This document shows, in pieces, positions 57,458-64,000 of a stretch of DNA of 64,000 nt. Position numbers and translations under genes: made by a program. The stretch covers positions 1-64,000 of the forward strand of contig NZ_JAIVFQ010000017.1 of NCBI RefSeq assembly GCF_020829495.1. The letters are read 5' to 3'. The notes under the pieces were generated by a model, which was not told the DNA's origin, searched no databases, and saw only the letters and a program-made list of their open reading frames with translations. How positions within the stretch are numbered: position 1 is the first letter of the stretch; each line of letters begins with the position of its first letter. This DNA is from Nostoc favosum CHAB5714 (GTDB taxonomy: Bacteria > Cyanobacteriota > Cyanobacteriia > Cyanobacteriales > Nostocaceae).

Positions 57458-58273
57458 GTGGTAGGTGTTGGAATCACATTAGCTTATAACGCTAGTGGTC
57501 TTACTGTACCAGCAGGTGGAATTAAGCTTTCACGAGCTAGTTACTGTGGGATTTTGAACGGTAGCATCACAAATTGGAATAATGCCAGCATTAGTGCAGA
57601 TAACGGCCGCCAAATAGCACTTAATCTACCCATCAAAGTTGTACGTCGTAGTGACTCAAGTGGTAGCACTTTTGTAGTAACCAGTCATCTCAATACTGCA
57701 TGTAAGCCTGCTGCGACTCCAGGTATTCCAGCAGCTAATGTATGGAATAGAGGAGTGGGTACAACTGTTAGTTGGCCAAGTACTTTCATTGGTGCTACTG
57801 GTGGTGGTGGTGTAGCCAGTGCGATCGCAACTACTCCTGGTGCAATTGGTTATGTGGATAGTGCTACCCGTTTAGCTAATAACCTACCTGCCGCACTTTT
57901 ACGTAACAAGGCAGGTAATTACACTGCTCCTTCAACAGACGCAATTACAGACGCTCTTCTAGGTGGAACTGTCGTCAAATACGGTACTAATCCCACTAAC
58001 AGGCTGATTAGAATCGATAATTTGAACGATCCAACCCGTCCAAATGCTTATCCTATTTCCACAGCAACTTATTTCCTGTTTTATGACATATACTCAGATG
58101 CTACCATAATAAATGGTATTAAAACCTTGAACACCTTGGCTTTGGGATCAGCTGCGGATACTTTCCTTACATCTCTAGGATATGCCCCTCTTCCCGCTCC
58201 CATTAAAACTGTGTCTACAGGTGTTGTGAATACTTGCGTAAATACTGTTTTAGGCCCTTCTCCTTGCAATTAG
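57458..58273 (+). pseudogene. 5'-truncated PstS-like phosphate-binding protein
   Basis: 272 codons open from GTG at 57458: GITLAYNASGLTVPAGGIKLSRASYCGILNGSITNWNNASI, KVVRRSDSSGSTFVVTSHL (phosphate-loop-like S-S-G-S-T), and GGVASAIATTPGAIGYVDSATR. This is the C-terminal three quarters of a PstS-type periplasmic phosphate-binding protein. The export signal and first lobe (roughly 80-100 residues) are missing, so the product could not be secreted. Flanked on both sides by acetyltransferase 3'-end sequence. Confidence 0.75.
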
Positions 58274-58547: not shown

Positions 58548-58641
58548 TTTTATAGATAAACATAAAATTAAAGTCTCCTCAAGCAAGACGGTAAGTAGCA
58601 ATGATAGTATATTTTCATGGCTGCTCTAATCCTTGCTATTG

Positions 58642-59118
58642 ATGAACAAACTATTGGATGAAACGCTGTCAATCAAAATTGCTGAAAGTATAAACAGCAG
58701 AGCTAGCACTCCGTTTGATAATGCTTACAAAGCAGCATTATCCACTGAGGGAGCAAGATATATTCAGGGATTTTTAGCTTTTGCAGGGAAACCATACAGA
58801 CCGATTGAACACGGTTGGATTGAGATTGGCGACGCTTCCGATGTCCGTATTGTCGATCCCACATTACCGCACCTAAACAAAAATCCCCAAGAACTCTGGT
58901 ATTTTGCAGCACAAAGGCTGACCGTTAAAAAACTGAAAGCCATCATTGAAGAATCGAAAGAAGATTATCCAGAAGATGATCCATTGCCAATCTATGGCGA
59001 TCCACCTTATGAATATTACGGTGATGTCATGTTAGGTGGCCAAGACTACTTGGCAGCATATCAAGCCGCAGAGGCTAAATGCAGAGAAATCAGCGAACTC
59101 AACCCTGAGAGTAACTAA
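58642..59118 (+). CDS. Hypothetical protein, function unknown
   Basis: 158 residues from the ATG at 58642. YIQGFLAFAGKPYRPIEHGWIEIGDASDVRIVDPTLPHLNK ... ELWYFAAQRLTVKKLKAIIEESKEDYPEDDPLPIYGDPPYEYYGDVMLGGQDYLAAYQAAEAK. Soluble and acidic. The HGWIE...VDPTL pattern resembles small proteins that occur beside mobile elements and transglutaminase-like folds, but I make no assignment. Solitary. Confidence 0.5.
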   Translation: MNKLLDETLSIKIAESINSRASTPFDNAYKAALSTEGARYIQGFLAFAGKPYRPIEHGWIEIGDASDVRIVDPTLPHLNKNPQELWYFAAQRLTVKKLKAIIEESKEDYPEDDPLPIYGDPPYEYYGDVMLGGQDYLAAYQAAEAKCREISELNPESN

Positions 59119-59175
59119 GAAGAGTGTATCAAATAATTCGTAATTCGTAATTACGAATTACGAATTACGAATTAT

Positions 59176-59574
59176 TTAATACGATTTACCATCGCTGCCA
59201 AAGTATTCCCTATAGCCACAAATTTTGTCTCCACGTACATCAAAAGAAACTGCTACCCGATTTTTGTAAGGCTGTCCAAACAAAAGCCCCTCATCCCGAA
59301 ACTCAAAGACAGCTGTCGTTTCACTGCTAGTAACACGGTCTAGACTAGTCAGGTTCAAACCAGGACTGAATGATTCAGAAACGTACTGGAAAAATTCTCT
59401 AGCTCGCTCTTTTCCCACATTCAAACCGTGGAATTTTCCCATTGGAAACCAAAGGGTAAAATCTTCTGTGAGCATATCTAACAACGGTTCCCACTCTCCT
59501 GTTGCCATCCCATGCGTCAGATTATCAAATGCCTGTTGAGCAACTTTTAAAGTATTTTCTGAATCTTGCGTCAT
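59176..59574 (-). CDS. NTF2-like (SnoaL-like) small protein
   Basis: 132 residues from the ATG at 59574 (MTQDSENTLKVAQQAFDNLTHGMATGEWEPLLDMLTEDFTLWFPMGKFHGLNVGKERAREFF); a longer frame overlaps the oxidoreductase gene. The cone-shaped alpha+beta fold of SnoaL/ketosteroid-isomerase-like proteins is indicated by WEPLLDMLTEDFTLW and AVFEFRDEGLLFGQPYKNRVAVSFDV. These act as small-molecule isomerases, cyclases or hydrolases, or as binding proteins. 38 bp downstream of the MDR gene, same strand, so probably co-transcribed. Confidence 0.75.
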   Translation of the reverse strand: MTQDSENTLKVAQQAFDNLTHGMATGEWEPLLDMLTEDFTLWFPMGKFHGLNVGKERAREFFQYVSESFSPGLNLTSLDRVTSSETTAVFEFRDEGLLFGQPYKNRVAVSFDVRGDKICGYREYFGSDGKSY

Positions 59575-59612
59575 TTTCACCCCCGACTGGATATAAACTA
59601 ATACCGTGTTAC

Positions 59613-60620
59613 TTAAAATCTCACAACTACTTTGCCACAATTCTGGCCACTGAGGAGATGTTCTACAGCGTCGGGTACAGATTCTATGCCTTGAAACTGT
59701 CTTGGATCAATGGCAACTTTGAGTTTGTCTGTGTAGAACAGGTAAAAAATGCGATCGCGTGCCTCTACCATATATTCTTTATAATGAGGCATGAGAAAGC
59801 CTCTTACAGAAGCAGCTTTCCAAAATAACTGGTGATAAATGCGTGATTGTGTAATTTGCTCTACATGATTTGCGTATTCGGAAATAAAACCAACCACTAC
59901 TAAACGTCCGCGCACTGCCAAGTTTTCAACGCAAGTATCAAATACTGCTTTGCCTACACACTCAAAAATTAGATTAATCCCATTGGGGTATTCTTGTTTG
60001 AGGACTTGATTGAGGTTTTCTGTGCGATAGTTGATGATGCGATCGCACCCTAATTCCTTTAGTAAATCTGCCTTAGCCTCAGAACTACAAGTACCAATGA
60101 CATGATTACCAGCTAATTTAGCCAATTGCACCGCAATATGACCGGTTCCTCCTGCTGCTGCTGTCACTAAAACCACTTCATTACTTTTCATCTCTCCTAC
60201 TTGTTCCAATGCAACCAAAGCTGATACACCTGTAGGTATTAGTGTTAGCACCTCTGGCGTTGCTTCCCGCACCTTCAGGGCTAAGTTTGCATCGATAAGC
60301 TGATATTCTCGATAACCGCCACCACGCGCCGTAGTTATTACAGCATCACCTATTTGAAAATCTTTAACATTTTCACCCACAGCAACAACTTTTCCTACTG
60401 CTTCTACACCTAAATCAAAAGGAGGAATCAAGTTAACATAGGGAACATCACCACGACAAAGTAAGGTGTCAAAGCCACCGTTAACGCCAGCAAATTTGTT
60501 TTGAATTAAAAGTTCACTAGACGCAGGTTTAGGAATAGGAATTTCGACAATTTCAATGGCAGATTTAAAATCTTGATTAAGTTGCTTTGCTATTAACTTT
60601 TTGTAAGTTTTTGCGTTCAT
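59613..60620 (-). CDS. MDR-family NADPH-dependent quinone/enone oxidoreductase
   Basis: 335 residues. GroES-like N-terminal domain (LIQNKFAGVNGGFDTLLCRGDVP, PFDLGVEAVGKVVAVGENVKDFQIGDAVIT), then a Rossmann domain with VTAAAGGTGHIAVQLAKLAGNHVIGTCSS and LGCDRIINYRTENL. It lacks zinc-ligand Cys clusters, so it is a zinc-free quinone oxidoreductase / prostaglandin-reductase-3-like enzyme that reduces an activated C=C bond. Part of the 59-64 kb gene group. Confidence 0.88.
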   Translation of the reverse strand: MNAKTYKKLIAKQLNQDFKSAIEIVEIPIPKPASSELLIQNKFAGVNGGFDTLLCRGDVPYVNLIPPFDLGVEAVGKVVAVGENVKDFQIGDAVITTARGGGYREYQLIDANLALKVREATPEVLTLIPTGVSALVALEQVGEMKSNEVVLVTAAAGGTGHIAVQLAKLAGNHVIGTCSSEAKADLLKELGCDRIINYRTENLNQVLKQEYPNGINLIFECVGKAVFDTCVENLAVRGRLVVVGFISEYANHVEQITQSRIYHQLFWKAASVRGFLMPHYKEYMVEARDRIFYLFYTDKLKVAIDPRQFQGIESVPDAVEHLLSGQNCGKVVVRF

Positions 60621-60711
60621 TTACCTAGATTAATTTAAGAAATATAAATGTAGTGTGCGTTCTGCTTTCAGCTAACGCACCATCAACAATCTAAAGTGCA
60701 TTACACTAAGC

Positions 60712-61506
60712 TTATAAAGCTTTATCCCACTCTAATTGATGAGCTAAACCATACTTAATAAAATCTTCTACTTTAGCTTTATCGCTTTTACCAAAAACAC
60801 CTAAGCTGTAGGGATTATCTTGCATCCGTTGTGTAACTTGCTCTTTCTCAAATCGGATAACTTCATCTCTAGGTTTATCCGGTTTAAAAAAGTCTACAAC
60901 CAAGACAGTTCTATCATAATTAGTATAATTATGCGGACAGTGTGGATAACTATGATCTAAAACCAGGAATTTTCCTTCATGCCAATAAAGTTGCTCATGG
61001 CATATTTTCATAGCCACATCTCCCTCTGGCACGATTAATCCTAGATAGCCACGATTCATGTGAGGGTTGTAGTTTACATGCAGCTTGATATCCAAGCCGG
61101 GATGGAATGTACCAAAATACACATTTCTGATGATTCCATCATTGCTAAAATTAACTTTTTCTATTACTTTAGCCAAATTGGGGAAGTATTTCTCTCTTAA
61201 TATAAGTGCTTTTTTTGATGCATCATCTGGCCCATAATCAGGATATTGTATTTGATGCGTCTGAATATATTTTTCAATAAACATACCTTGAAATAAAATC
61301 CCAAAAGCACTGTATTTTGCATCACCCTTGGTTTTAATCGTTTGACTTTTAGGGCCAAAAATATCATAAGTTAACTTTAACTCGTCATCAGATGCATTCT
61401 TAATAAAGCGTGTAAACTCATCTCTAATCACTTGCCAGTTATCTTCAAAACTTTTGAGAAAAGTAAAATTTTTTGGGTCTATATGATACTCATTAAAACT
61501 TTCCAT
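60712..61506 (-). CDS. Aspartyl/asparaginyl beta-hydroxylase-like protein
   Basis: 264 residues from the ATG at 61506, which has AGGAG 8 nt upstream; an ATG at 61533 is in frame but has no such site. The second half resembles the Asp_Arg_Hydrox fold: FHPGLDIKLHVNYNPHMNRGYLGLIVPEGDVAMKICHEQLYWHEGKFLVLDHSYPHCPHNYTNYDRTVLVVDFFKP. These are 2-oxoglutarate/Fe(II) dioxygenases with two His iron ligands. The second (YPHCPHN) is visible; at the first, usually HLGL, this protein has YLGL. Either another His (NPH) serves, or the activity is altered. The substrate is unknown. 91 bp upstream of the MDR gene on the same strand and divergent from the amidohydrolase gene. Confidence 0.8.
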   Translation of the reverse strand: MESFNEYHIDPKNFTFLKSFEDNWQVIRDEFTRFIKNASDDELKLTYDIFGPKSQTIKTKGDAKYSAFGILFQGMFIEKYIQTHQIQYPDYGPDDASKKALILREKYFPNLAKVIEKVNFSNDGIIRNVYFGTFHPGLDIKLHVNYNPHMNRGYLGLIVPEGDVAMKICHEQLYWHEGKFLVLDHSYPHCPHNYTNYDRTVLVVDFFKPDKPRDEVIRFEKEQVTQRMQDNPYSLGVFGKSDKAKVEDFIKYGLAHQLEWDKAL

Positions 61507-61611
61507 TGTCTTTTCTCCTGAAGATGATTTCATAAAAAACCGTTATATAATGATGGGATTTGGTCTTCGTCCCGATTCGATGTTGGAATTCCTGACTAAA
61601 CTCATTTTAGT

Positions 61612-63093
61612 GTGAGGTCTACTGTGTCTGAAACTGCCGTATTAGATAAAATTATCAAAAATGTGCGGGTAGTTCGTCCCCATCAGGATGTAATCGAACT
61701 ACTCGATTTAGGCATTAAGGATGGAAAATTTGCTCAGATTGCCCCTAATATTAGCGCAGACACAGGTAAAGAGGTATTTGATGGCAAAAATCTGCTAGGC
61801 TTTCCTGGGGTCGTGGATGCCCACATGCACATCGGTATCTATCAACCTCTGGACAAAGATGCTGTAACTGAAACCAAAGCAGCCGCAATGGGAGGCGTGA
61901 CTACCAGCTTAAATTACATCCGTACAGGGCAGTATTATCTTAACAAAGGCGGCTCCTACCGCGATTTTTTTCCAGAGGTGTTGGCGTTATCCGCAGGTAA
62001 TTTTTTTGTAGATTACAGCTATCACATCGCACCTATAGCTAGCCAGCATATCGACGAAATACCTTTATTGTTTGAAGAACACGGTGTCTCTTCGTTTAAA
62101 ATCTTCATGTTTTATGGCGGTTATGGGTTGCATGGTTTGTCAGACCAGCAAAACCTCTTTTTAATGATTAATAAAGAGGAACGGTACGATTTCGCCCATT
62201 TTGAATTTATTATGCGTGGTCTAACTCGCTTGATGGAAAAGCATCCAGAAGCGCGAGATACTATCAGCTTGAGTTTGCATTGCGAAGTTGCAGAAATTCT
62301 CAACGCTTATACCAAAATAGTTGAAAACGATTATACTCTTAGCGGATTACACGCTTACAGTGCAGCACGTCCACCTCATTCCGAAGGTTTAGCAATTTGC
62401 ATTGCTTCTTATTTGGCGCATGAGACTAACTGTGCAAATATCAATTTGTTGCACCTGAGTTCGCGTAAAGCAATGGAAGCAGCTTTGACTATGCAAACTG
62501 CTTTTCCTCATATCAACTTTCGGCGAGAAGTTACTATCGGACATTTGTTATTAGATGTCGATACTCCCAATACAATTTGGGCAAAAGTCAACCCTCCTAT
62601 TCGTCCCCGTGCCGATGTGGAATACTTATGGCAAGCAGTACTCAACAATCAAGTAGATTGGATAGTTAGCGACCACGCTTGCTGTTCTGCTGAACAGAAA
62701 AGAAGTGCTAAAGACTCGGATAATATTTGGTTAGCAAAGTCTGGTTTTGGTGGTACAGAATATTTACTTTCTGGTGTATTTAGTGAAGGTAGCAAGCGGG
62801 GTATGTTTTACAATCACATGGCTAAGTTACTATCTTGGAACCCATCGCGGCGTTTTGGTTTGTTAGAAAAAGGTGATATTGCTATTGGTTATGATGCTGA
62901 CTTGGTGCTGTTAGACCCTAATGAAACCTTTGTGGTACGTGCGGCTGAGTCGGAGTCACAACAAGGTTACACACCTTTTGAAGGAGTTGAGTTAACCGGG
63001 CGGGTTAAGAGTACTTTTTTACGGGGAAATTTGATTTACAATAACGGACAGGTTTTGGGTTCTCCAACTGGGCGCTATTTAAAAAGAGCATAG
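61612..63093 (+). CDS. Dihydropyrimidinase/hydantoinase-like amidohydrolase
   Basis: 493 residues, cyclic amidohydrolase fold. A full binuclear metal site is visible: DAHMHIG (HxH), SSFKIFMFYGG (Lys to be carboxylated), SLSLHCEVAEI (His), INLLHLSSRKAME (His), and WIVSDHACCS (Asp). The N-terminal strand (IIKNVRVVRPHQDVIELLDLGIKDGKFAQI) and C-terminal DLVLLDPNETFVV complete the small beta domain. It cleaves cyclic amides such as hydantoins, dihydropyrimidines or allantoin; the exact ring is unknown. Start GTG at 61612, alternative GTG at 61624. Divergent from the beta-hydroxylase-like gene (105 bp apart), convergent with the alpha/beta-fold gene (4 bp apart). Confidence 0.88.
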   Translation: MRSTVSETAVLDKIIKNVRVVRPHQDVIELLDLGIKDGKFAQIAPNISADTGKEVFDGKNLLGFPGVVDAHMHIGIYQPLDKDAVTETKAAAMGGVTTSLNYIRTGQYYLNKGGSYRDFFPEVLALSAGNFFVDYSYHIAPIASQHIDEIPLLFEEHGVSSFKIFMFYGGYGLHGLSDQQNLFLMINKEERYDFAHFEFIMRGLTRLMEKHPEARDTISLSLHCEVAEILNAYTKIVENDYTLSGLHAYSAARPPHSEGLAICIASYLAHETNCANINLLHLSSRKAMEAALTMQTAFPHINFRREVTIGHLLLDVDTPNTIWAKVNPPIRPRADVEYLWQAVLNNQVDWIVSDHACCSAEQKRSAKDSDNIWLAKSGFGGTEYLLSGVFSEGSKRGMFYNHMAKLLSWNPSRRFGLLEKGDIAIGYDADLVLLDPNETFVVRAAESESQQGYTPFEGVELTGRVKSTFLRGNLIYNNGQVLGSPTGRYLKRA

Positions 63094-63097
63094 AGTT

Positions 63098-63922
63098 TTA
63101 AACATTTGTATTGTCCAGAAACTCTATAATTACCTTTGATATTTCTTCAGGTATTTGGTTCATCATGCAAATGGTTCCATCTGGAAACTCCACAACCTTA
63201 GCATGGGGAATTGCTTGTGATAAGAAATATCGGTCTTTTGCTAGTGCTAAACCTAATTTTTGGAATTCTTCTACATCGTCAATTCCCCAGACTATCAGTG
63301 TAGGACACTTAATTGAAGTAAACCTTTGGGCGGCATCTATACAGTAATTTCCTACTGCCCAAACTGCGTACAAAGGATAGCCAAAGCATTTCAAATCATC
63401 TAAAACCCAACGATGATTTAAATCAGCAGAACCTACATATCTGGAACGGGCTAACCATCTTTCCATCAAGTGAGAACCATCCTCTTTAATGACGAAACCT
63501 TCTTGAAACCGCTTCATTAAATCTGCTTTTCCAGCTTCACCAAAACCAGCAACGTTACACAAAATTAAATTATTGACCCGTTCCGGATAAGCTGAGGCTA
63601 CTTCTCCAGAAACGAAAGCGCCCGTGTGGTTACCCAGAATATTTGTTTGTTCAATACTCAACTCATCCAACAGGGCAATAACAGTTTTAGCGTAGTCCGC
63701 CACTGAATACAATTTTGGTGGTTTATCAGATTCACCAAAACCCATAAGATCCATTGCTATCACGCGGTACTTTGTTACCAAAATGGACATTAATTCACGA
63801 TATTCGTCACTACTGCGGGGGTTCATATGCAGCAGTAACAAAGGCTCTCCTTCACCGCCAATCCGATAAAGAATCTGTCCATCTTCAGTGTCTAAAAAAG
63901 CTCGCTTGATTGGTTTATTCAT
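63098..63922 (-). CDS. Alpha/beta-hydrolase-fold protein with atypical active site
   Basis: 274 residues. Fold landmarks: LLLLHMNPRSSDEYRELMSIL, VIAMDLMGFGESDKPPKL, LILCNVAGFG, and PTLIVWGIDDVEEF. The nucleophile elbow, usually GxSxG, reads GNHTG (ILGNHTGAFVSGEVA), and the place of the catalytic His near the C-terminus reads FPDGTICMMNQIPEE with no His. The Asp-carrying turn (GIDD) is present. This could be a non-hydrolytic member or one using different chemistry. The stop codon is 4 bp from that of the hydantoinase-like gene. Confidence 0.8.
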   Translation of the reverse strand: MNKPIKRAFLDTEDGQILYRIGGEGEPLLLLHMNPRSSDEYRELMSILVTKYRVIAMDLMGFGESDKPPKLYSVADYAKTVIALLDELSIEQTNILGNHTGAFVSGEVASAYPERVNNLILCNVAGFGEAGKADLMKRFQEGFVIKEDGSHLMERWLARSRYVGSADLNHRWVLDDLKCFGYPLYAVWAVGNYCIDAAQRFTSIKCPTLIVWGIDDVEEFQKLGLALAKDRYFLSQAIPHAKVVEFPDGTICMMNQIPEEISKVIIEFLDNTNV

Positions 63923-64000
63923 ACTACCCTGATAAATTTAGGATTTATATCAGCCTTTATTTAACTTCTTCAGCAAATTACCTTTTCTGTGCTATGTTCT
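63923..64000. other. Window edge
   Basis: The last 78 bp is AT-rich upstream sequence of the alpha/beta-fold gene. Nothing recognisable. The gene group may continue beyond the window. Confidence 0.3.

Follow-up and report, generated by a model that had tools for sequence, protein, structure and literature searches.

The amidohydrolase locus

The window is a stretch of 64,000 nucleotides from Nostoc favosum CHAB5714, the first 64,000 bases of a 116,628-base contig (G000:C88:1-64000), and carries a gene for a cyclic amidohydrolase, here named AMID, in a compact group of five genes. Their places, strands and domains, as laid out in a preliminary description of this DNA, were confirmed from the open reading frames (ORFs) and Pfam domains. 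The AMID stop codon ends at 63093 and that of the alpha/beta-fold gene begins at 63098, which bears out the 4 bp that had been reported between the two convergent genes. For the NTF2-like gene, presence and strand stand and the start changes: it is probably the ATG at 59574 and not the TTG at 59640 that overlaps the MDR gene, since the resulting 132 residues are close to the length of most orthologues. The 78 bp between the divergent BHYD and AMID genes are a possible common control region.

59176..59574, minus strand: NTF2/SnoaL-like small protein, 132 residues (PF12680, SnoaL_2; 40.2 bits, cut-off 27)
59613..60620, minus strand: MDR-superfamily NAD(P)H enone/quinone-reductase-like protein (PF00107, 93.2 bits; zinc-type MDR domains)
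60712..61533, minus strand: BHYD, aspartyl/asparaginyl beta-hydroxylase-like protein with altered iron site (PF05118, Asp_Arg_Hydrox; 72.8 bits, cut-off 22.6)
61534..61611, no strand: divergent intergenic stretch of 78 bp between BHYD and AMID (sequence)
61612..63093, plus strand: AMID, cyclic amidohydrolase of 493 residues, proposed cyclic-imide hydrolase (amidohydrolase domain)
63098..63922, minus strand: ABH, alpha/beta-hydrolase-fold protein without serine nucleophile, GNHTG elbow (PF00561, Abhydrolase_1; 71.5 bits)
58633..59118, plus strand: flanking gene of 161 residues, a border marker outside the pathway (no family found)

Linkage, co-occurrence and loss in cyanobacteria

A scan of named genomes provided the best 80 of at least 373 confirmed relatives of AMID, comprising 57 cyanobacterial and 23 other loci. 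Homologues scattered without linkage had been named beforehand as the finding that would speak against a cluster; instead, linkage is conserved across cyanobacteria, and at 44 of the 57 loci BHYD lies directly beside AMID in divergent orientation. Contig ends truncate many of the 57 loci; 35 exceed 20 kb in length. Near AMID, hidden Markov model (HMM) searches of ORFs found BHYD at 48 loci, NTF2 at 26, MDR, ABH, DUF4437 and DUF3598 at 21 each, aldehyde dehydrogenase (ALDH) and the CN_hydrolase-family protein CNH at 16 each, RidA at 7, DUF1838 at 6, MDR2 at 5, SDR at 4 and red chlorophyll catabolite (RCC) reductase at 3. Clustering of ORFs of 90 residues or more at 24 loci, the window's among them, likewise returned, besides the window's five genes, recurring ALDH, CNH, DUF3598, DUF4437 cupin, SDR, RidA, DUF1838, RCC reductase and a second MDR. 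MDR and SDR, the latter of enoyl-reductase type at its 4 loci, never occur at one locus (0/57), so one enone or enoyl reduction may be needed in the pathway. ABH and the DUF4437 cupin tend to replace or exclude each other: each is found alone at 17 loci, both at 4 and neither at 19 (one-sided p = 0.03). DUF4437 was not found in the window's genome, in a search that had no positive control.

Co-occurrence was counted in 243 genomes sampled from the order, with E cut-offs of 1e-60 for AMID, 1e-40 for BHYD and CNH, 1e-25 for DUF3598 and 1e-20 for the RCC-reductase-like gene. AMID and BHYD are each found in 24 genomes, CNH in 28, DUF3598 in 36 and the RCC-reductase-like gene in 15. AMID and BHYD occur together in 23 genomes and each without the other in 1, leaving 218 with neither (Fisher p = 6e-30). 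The corresponding counts (both, AMID only, partner only, neither) are 23, 1, 5 and 214 for CNH and 23, 1, 13 and 206 for DUF3598; the sole AMID genome lacking these two, G178, is 77% complete. DUF3598 is also present in all 28 CNH genomes. The association also holds for genes that are widely separated on one contig (G168, G120) or sit on different contigs (G068, G242 and the window's genome, G000). Pairwise divergence follows that of AMID for BHYD, MDR, ALDH, NTF2, CNH and DUF3598 (Mantel r 0.64-0.87, 16-48 loci each), compared with r 0.41 for hisS (16 loci; 2 of 999 permutations as high). The gene set is almost certainly a real, co-inherited functional unit.

The window holds about half of this set. 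In the window's genome the other half lies on another contig (G000:C208:136008-142326, locus L058), where DUF3598, ALDH, CNH and the RCC-reductase-like gene stand beside the housekeeping gene hisS, with some other ORFs between DUF3598 and ALDH. Both halves share one stretch in the relatives L039, L087, L100, L102 and L104, the last without RCC reductase. At L058 12788-13171, near the full copy of the RCC-reductase-like gene, there is a match to the last part of that gene, in an ORF whose start looks unlike the RCC-reductase copies. hisS itself was rejected as a pathway member: it is the sole match at E 1e-60 in 9/9 genomes, three of them without AMID.

Remnants in genomes that lack an intact AMID describe how the set is lost. 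AMID-less G058 retains the 161-residue gene, NTF2, hisS and ALDH, but of CNH only the last 50 residues. In G240, a genome of the window's genus, hisS, ALDH and RCC reductase are present together with some 50 C-terminal residues of CNH; in G154, ALDH, hisS and NTF2 remain along with roughly half of DUF3598. In G111 only the second half of AMID remains, with two stops, beside CNH, ALDH, DUF3598, ABH, DUF4437, MDR and NTF2; BHYD was not found in this genome. Thus AMID and BHYD are lost together, mostly with CNH, whereas ALDH, NTF2 and DUF3598 can outlive them. NTF2 survives without AMID in G058 and G154 and is therefore not exclusive to the pathway. The short distance between the 161-residue gene and hisS in G058 had been considered as an empty insertion site; the NTF2, ALDH and CNH remnant found there indicate a deletion. 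Decay is not seen in every AMID-less genome: G235 has intact DUF3598 and ALDH beside hisS, and at the RCC-reductase loci of G094, G139 and G197 no further gene of the cluster is present.

The RCC-reductase-like gene is enriched with AMID (8/24 AMID genomes vs 7/219 others, p = 1e-5) and adjoins CNH in G000, G035, G077 and G229; it is at best an accessory. An ICL-family lyase was rejected as a cyanobacterial member, being present in 10/24 AMID genomes vs 46/219 others (p = 0.026) and absent from the window's genome. It does lie near the cluster in G035, G055, G191 and Lyngbya aestuarii, and by coordinates in G058 too; the lyases near the cluster at L037 18227-19087, L068 6557-7447, L060 12902-13756 and L123 7926-8783 share about 39-43% identity with the lyase that accompanies AMID in heterotrophs.

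The amidohydrolase and its altered partners

AMID falls under the cut-off of each of the 25 best among 50 NCBIfam models, the nearest being allantoinase (231.6 bits, cut-off 357.85) and, among the others, D-hydantoinase (193.1, cut-off 393.25). It had been described as a complete binuclear amidohydrolase, and all six metal-site residues are indeed present in the window's copy. In the alignment, five of the six ligand positions are kept in 83/83 sequences and the first His in 82/83; such copy counts, here and below, pool loci in which the same genome sometimes stands twice (e.g. L037/L100, L043/L134, L046/L112), so that they overstate independent copies. Arg104 is present in 83/83, and Lys or Arg occupies position 112 in 81/83; these two residues could hold a carboxylate side chain of the substrate. 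AMID resembles allantoinase, D-hydantoinase and dihydropyrimidinase in superfamily, in length, in the HxH...Lys...His...His...Asp metal site and in an intact active-site Tyr, the roles of these residues being taken here as we understand them for the superfamily. It differs from the same enzymes in its sub-cut-off scores, in the invariant Arg104 and in its gene neighbours; many solved relatives cover the AMID query only in part. By sequence, AMID is a distinct cyclic-amidohydrolase subfamily nearest to allantoinase and hydantoinase. The family is highly alike across phyla, lacks a curated function match in the libraries searched and is tied to two different gene sets. Imidase is itself counted among the cyclic amidohydrolases in the relevant passages of two papers (PMC4437985, PMC5832032).

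Several partners keep a familiar fold with unfamiliar residues, judged by computed alignments and by what we presume to be the residue roles in AspH, nitrilases and hydrolases. BHYD had been called dioxygenase-like; the PF05118 domain is there, and the role is weakened by Tyr in place of the first iron-binding His of AspH in 71/71 copies, the second position being His in 71/71. Invariant His residues also stand at positions 152, 158, 198 and 201. The predicted BHYD structure has a mean pLDDT (predicted local distance difference test) of 62.7, and the value drops below 50 in parts of the putative active site. CNH (L037 copy: PF00795, 101.5 bits, cut-off 23.2) has Glu-Arg-Ser in place of the Glu-Lys-Cys triad in 43/43 copies aligned to 1ems and 2uxy. 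The alpha/beta fold assigned to ABH holds and its serine nucleophile does not: the position is His in 27, Leu in 10, Val in 3 and Thr in 1 of the 41 copies, and never Ser, Cys or Asp. Because the textbook catalytic residues are gone in every aligned copy of BHYD, CNH and ABH, the family labels are unsafe, and the three proteins probably no longer catalyse the reactions typical of those families. The strict conservation of the altered residues in BHYD and CNH argues against simple decay; the ABH position, by contrast, varies. These three proteins, which keep a hydrolase or oxygenase fold without its textbook residues, are good places to seek new enzyme chemistry.

ALDH keeps its catalytic Asn, Glu and Cys in 38/38 copies each. 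The best NCBIfam model for MDR is PIG3 quinone reductase (162.9, cut-off 296.8), and the closest model for SDR is an FabL-type enoyl reductase, below cut-off, with the Tyr-x6-Lys spacing that we take to be the motif of this kind of SDR. DUF3598 is predicted as a confident lipocalin barrel (pLDDT 94.5), nearest to BFA1 and Npun_R4044, then to nitrobindins and spirocyclases, and then to bilin lyases. Its Z scores are 15 for nitrobindin, 14-15 for the polyether spirocyclases OssO/OlmO (among other lipocalin-like barrels), about 13 for the bilin lyases 3bdr and 4tq2 and 11-12 for fatty-acid-binding proteins. The passages on DUF3598 in PMC6214176 and PMC4640240 give no function. The RCC-reductase-like protein has a PDB relative, 3agb, at 1e-11; its L037 copy scores 81.4 bits with PF06405 (cut-off 24.9), and the copy in the window's genome is 60% identical to that of L037.

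Proposed substrate and pathway

Outside cyanobacteria AMID keeps different company. The 23 other loci belong to Chloroflexota, Pseudomonadota, Acidobacteriota, Bacteroidota and Rokubacteria, and their AMID shares 66-75% identity with that of the window; further copies, on two actinobacterial plasmids, have 59% identity to the Hyphomicrobiales copy L143. In a tree of 83 sequences, rooted at the midpoint only, the 58 cyanobacterial ones form one side of a branch with 100/99 support; the simplest reading is probably one gain, then descent and loss. Neighbours around the 25 non-cyanobacterial AMID genes were counted by tblastn, ORF calling missing genes under longer antisense ORFs in GC-rich loci (AMID itself in L133, L139 and L152), and several of the contigs are merely 4-8 kb. 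Aconitase/IPM-dehydratase-type subunits, an ICL-family lyase and a CaiB CoA-transferase are each found at 9 loci, a fumarate-reductase/TcuA-like flavoprotein at 8, Liv-type transporters at 7, PrpD at 4, HyuA/B at 3, and isochorismatase and CoA-ester lyase (one at 30% identity) at 2 each. At least one of hydratase, ICL-family lyase, CaiB, PrpD and CoA-ester lyase stands at 19/25 of these loci, compared with 4/57 cyanobacterial loci in the same search; the 6 loci with none include L133, L151 and L169, which have full flanks.

The downstream sets at these loci differ: hydratase with ICL-family lyase, CoA-transferase with hydratase, and CoA-transferase with PrpD and RipC-like lyase. They point to one logic, the cutting of a branched dicarboxylate, unsaturated or hydroxylated, into central metabolites. 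A Rhodococcus plasmid locus illustrates the third, with HyuA/B, amidase, PrpD, a cyclase-family protein, the RipC-like lyase, flavoprotein, CoA transferase and MFS transporter; its lyase is nearest to RipC of itaconate breakdown (154.6, cut-off 375). A CaiB neighbour is nearest to succinate-glutarate CoA-transferase (241, cut-off 750), and the heterotroph lyase that was compared has petal death protein, methylisocitrate lyase and 2,3-dimethylmalate lyase alike among its matches. We assume that petal death protein favours 2-alkylmalates; a literature search on this gave nothing usable. Since the product would end in dicarboxylate cleavage, AMID would most simply open a maleimide- or succinimide-type imide, and on the strength of its neighbour genes it is proposed to be a cyclic-imide hydrolase.

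In the pathway proposed here, the substrate of AMID would be a cyclic imide, or a five-membered cyclic amide closely related to one, and its hydrolysis would give the ring-opened half-amide. In heterotrophs the half-amide would then lose its nitrogen and become a branched dicarboxylate, probably a substituted maleate; an aconitase-type hydratase with an ICL-family lyase, or a CoA-transferase with a lyase, would cut this into central metabolites. In cyanobacteria AMID would act with the near-constant BHYD, CNH and DUF3598, often with one enone or enoyl reductase (MDR or SDR), ALDH and small binding or isomerase folds, and the most likely role of this set is to turn over, or in part remodel, a ring compound of that kind. 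Both groups may share the type of substrate and differ in the fate of the product, as AMID sits in another gene set in cyanobacteria. A nitrogen-rich natural product, as suggested in the preliminary description, is possible; the contexts outside cyanobacteria point more to degradation of a cyclic imide or amide into a dicarboxylate than to the building of a nitrogen-rich compound. That AMID hydrolyses a cyclic imide in a ring-compound pathway is the leading reading, at a probability of roughly 0.35; if true, it names candidates for the microbial fate of maleimides.

Two known routes can be set beside this proposal. Bacterial cyclic-imide degradation proceeds by an imidase and a half-amidase, and its sequence of hydantoinase-type step, amide cleavage and dicarboxylate metabolism would match the heterotroph AMID loci; the cyanobacterial CN-hydrolase partner differs from the half-amidase in lacking Lys and Cys, in a comparison that contained no proven half-amidase sequence. 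The breakdown of 2,3-dimethylmaleate/dimethylmalate and of itaconate (Rip) uses a hydratase and ICL-family lyase, or a CoA-transferase and RipC-like lyase, as found beside heterotroph AMID, but such genes stand beside only 4/57 cyanobacterial AMID genes and the lyase matches three enzymes alike. The preliminary description could name no pathway, and no nameable known pathway was matched here either. Among open-licence papers, none was found on DUF4437 in cyanobacteria, on a cyanobacterial hydantoinase and beta-hydroxylase gene cluster, or linking RCC reductase, cyanobacteria and amidohydrolase, or dimethylmalate lyase with hydantoinase.

A number of observations weigh against the proposal. CNH occurs without AMID in five genomes (G055, G096, G173, G196, G215), 13 AMID-less genomes retain DUF3598, AMID-less G238 has a partial BHYD match, and 30/57 loci have no reductase within reach. 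The hydratase-lyase-CoA-transferase module rarely adjoins cyanobacterial AMID and a search of the window's genome with the cyanobacterial ICL-family lyase found nothing at E 1e-60, so the heterotroph route is not simply transferable to cyanobacteria. CNH, the natural half-amidase candidate, is by its sequence not a normal one, being without the catalytic Lys and Cys. The queries for the heterotroph neighbours were taken from the same 25 loci in which they were counted. Of 17 such neighbours compared with NCBIfam, the hydratase subunits alone exceed a cut-off; at L138 the models passed are leuC and leuD, so that these subunits could be ordinary leucine-biosynthesis enzymes.

The strongest competitor, which we consider plausible though not favoured, is that the cyanobacterial set makes a specialised metabolite, with AMID closing a ring or opening it as tailoring and BHYD, CNH, ABH, NTF2, DUF3598 and the reductase as repurposed tailoring enzymes. 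The patchy spread of AMID (24/243 genomes), the SnoaL-like, MDR/SDR and alpha/beta-fold members, the three folds with altered active sites in every aligned copy and the closeness of the DUF3598 model to OssO/OlmO all fit such a role. The families at 3 or more of the 24 clustered loci, however, include no carrier-protein, polyketide synthase/non-ribosomal peptide synthetase or transporter family, AMID at 66-75% identity sits elsewhere in catabolic-looking contexts, and ALDH and NTF2 persist in genomes without AMID.

Pigment-derived maleimides are the boldest substrate candidate for a cyclic-imide hydrolase. AMID would then be the missing enzyme of the last stage of chlorophyll, haem and bilin breakdown, opening hematinic acid and methyl-ethyl-maleimide; heterotrophs would hydrate the dialkylmaleate and cut it to pyruvate plus glutarate or butyrate, and cyanobacteria would recycle nitrogen and carbon of their own pigments with the RCC-reductase-like enzyme and lipocalin folds. 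This is possible, if improbable as a whole, given the enrichment of the RCC-reductase-like gene, the DUF3598 lipocalin barrel and the literature on hematinic acid; the RCC-reductase-like gene passes the Pfam cut-off for that bilin reductase family, but only 8/24 AMID genomes carry it. In the passages concerned, hematinic acid is described as arising in leaves from chlorophyll breakdown, and earlier reports of maleimides in senescent leaves and in lake sediments are cited, in a study that itself detected no maleimides (PMC7318184); in a passage of another, maleimides in old sediments are treated as breakdown products of photosynthetic pigments (PMC8669743).

Detoxification of an environmental imide or lactam, e.g. 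a glutarimide-type antibiotic, instead of turnover of an internal compound is similarly improbable. The scattered occurrence of AMID, which bears signs of one gain and several later losses, would suit it, as would the Liv-type uptake genes beside AMID at 7/25 heterotroph loci; yet such genes stand at 0/57 cyanobacterial loci, and no transporter, regulator or known resistance family is among those at 3 or more of the 24 clustered loci. Ordinary reductive pyrimidine or hydantoin/allantoin breakdown, with AMID as dihydropyrimidinase or allantoinase and CNH as beta-ureidopropionase, is less credible still. Allantoinase and dihydropyrimidinase are the best NCBIfam models for AMID, and a CN_hydrolase and an aldehyde dehydrogenase accompany it; but AMID scores far under both cut-offs, the CNH triad is Glu-Arg-Ser in 43/43, and the annotated recurring neighbours, as distinct from the whole genome, which was not searched for them, include no dihydropyrimidine dehydrogenase or ureidoglycolate family. 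Chance neighbourhood without a common pathway can practically be dismissed: hisS and the 161-residue gene did look like members and proved mere neighbours, but the co-occurrence of genes far apart or on different contigs and their joint loss with remnants speak against it.

Further AMID contexts may be recorded beside the proposed imide opening. DUF3598 (40% identity), DUF4437, Lipocalin_5 and DUF1838 (HMM score 153) stand singly beside AMID in Blastocatellia, a gammaproteobacterium, Chloroflexi and Cytophagales. In a Hyphomicrobiaceae genome, an SfnG/RutA-like flavin monooxygenase, under both cut-offs, directly follows AMID (L138 11624-12793). At L136 3855-8908 three AMID-like matches in a row have 31%, 78% and 75% identity to the L143 copy, the last being a fragment; a duplication or a second subfamily is possible.

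Borders and flanking genes

The suggestion that the cluster may extend past 64 kb was not borne out, the next genes being emfourin and an M4 protease and the other half of the set lying on another contig. To the right of the window are emfourin, the M4 protease, a methyltransferase and a 3-dehydroquinate-synthase-like cyclase. Emfourin and M4 protease occur at 13/57 cyanobacterial AMID loci (12 Nostoc and 1 Desmonostoc), the methyltransferase at 11/57 and the cyclase at 2/57; by these counts the cluster does not run rightward past 64 kb. The emfourin-like inhibitor gene adjoins the protealysin-type M4 protease gene (window 63978-64000; G000:C88:63978-65668). The cyclase, a sugar phosphate cyclase, lies at G000:C88:67909-69141 with no obvious mycosporine genes adjoining in the window's genome.

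On the left, the 161-residue gene was rejected as a cluster member: it is found in 74/243 genomes, including 18/18 of the window's family, 10 of them without AMID. It has no family match in Pfam, NCBIfam and PHROGs scans; a PHROGs search gave no match for two proteins. Upstream of it, at 57458-58273, is a PBP_like_2 phosphate-binding-protein-like ORF with a GTG start, possibly truncated (271 residues vs a relative of about 387 in L035). A palindromic short repeat lies at 59117-59190, between the 161-residue and NTF2-like genes. When the whole genome was searched with 59000-64000 (40 of 299 candidates scored), all 54 further matches listed, one being its own reverse strand, fell in this repeat.

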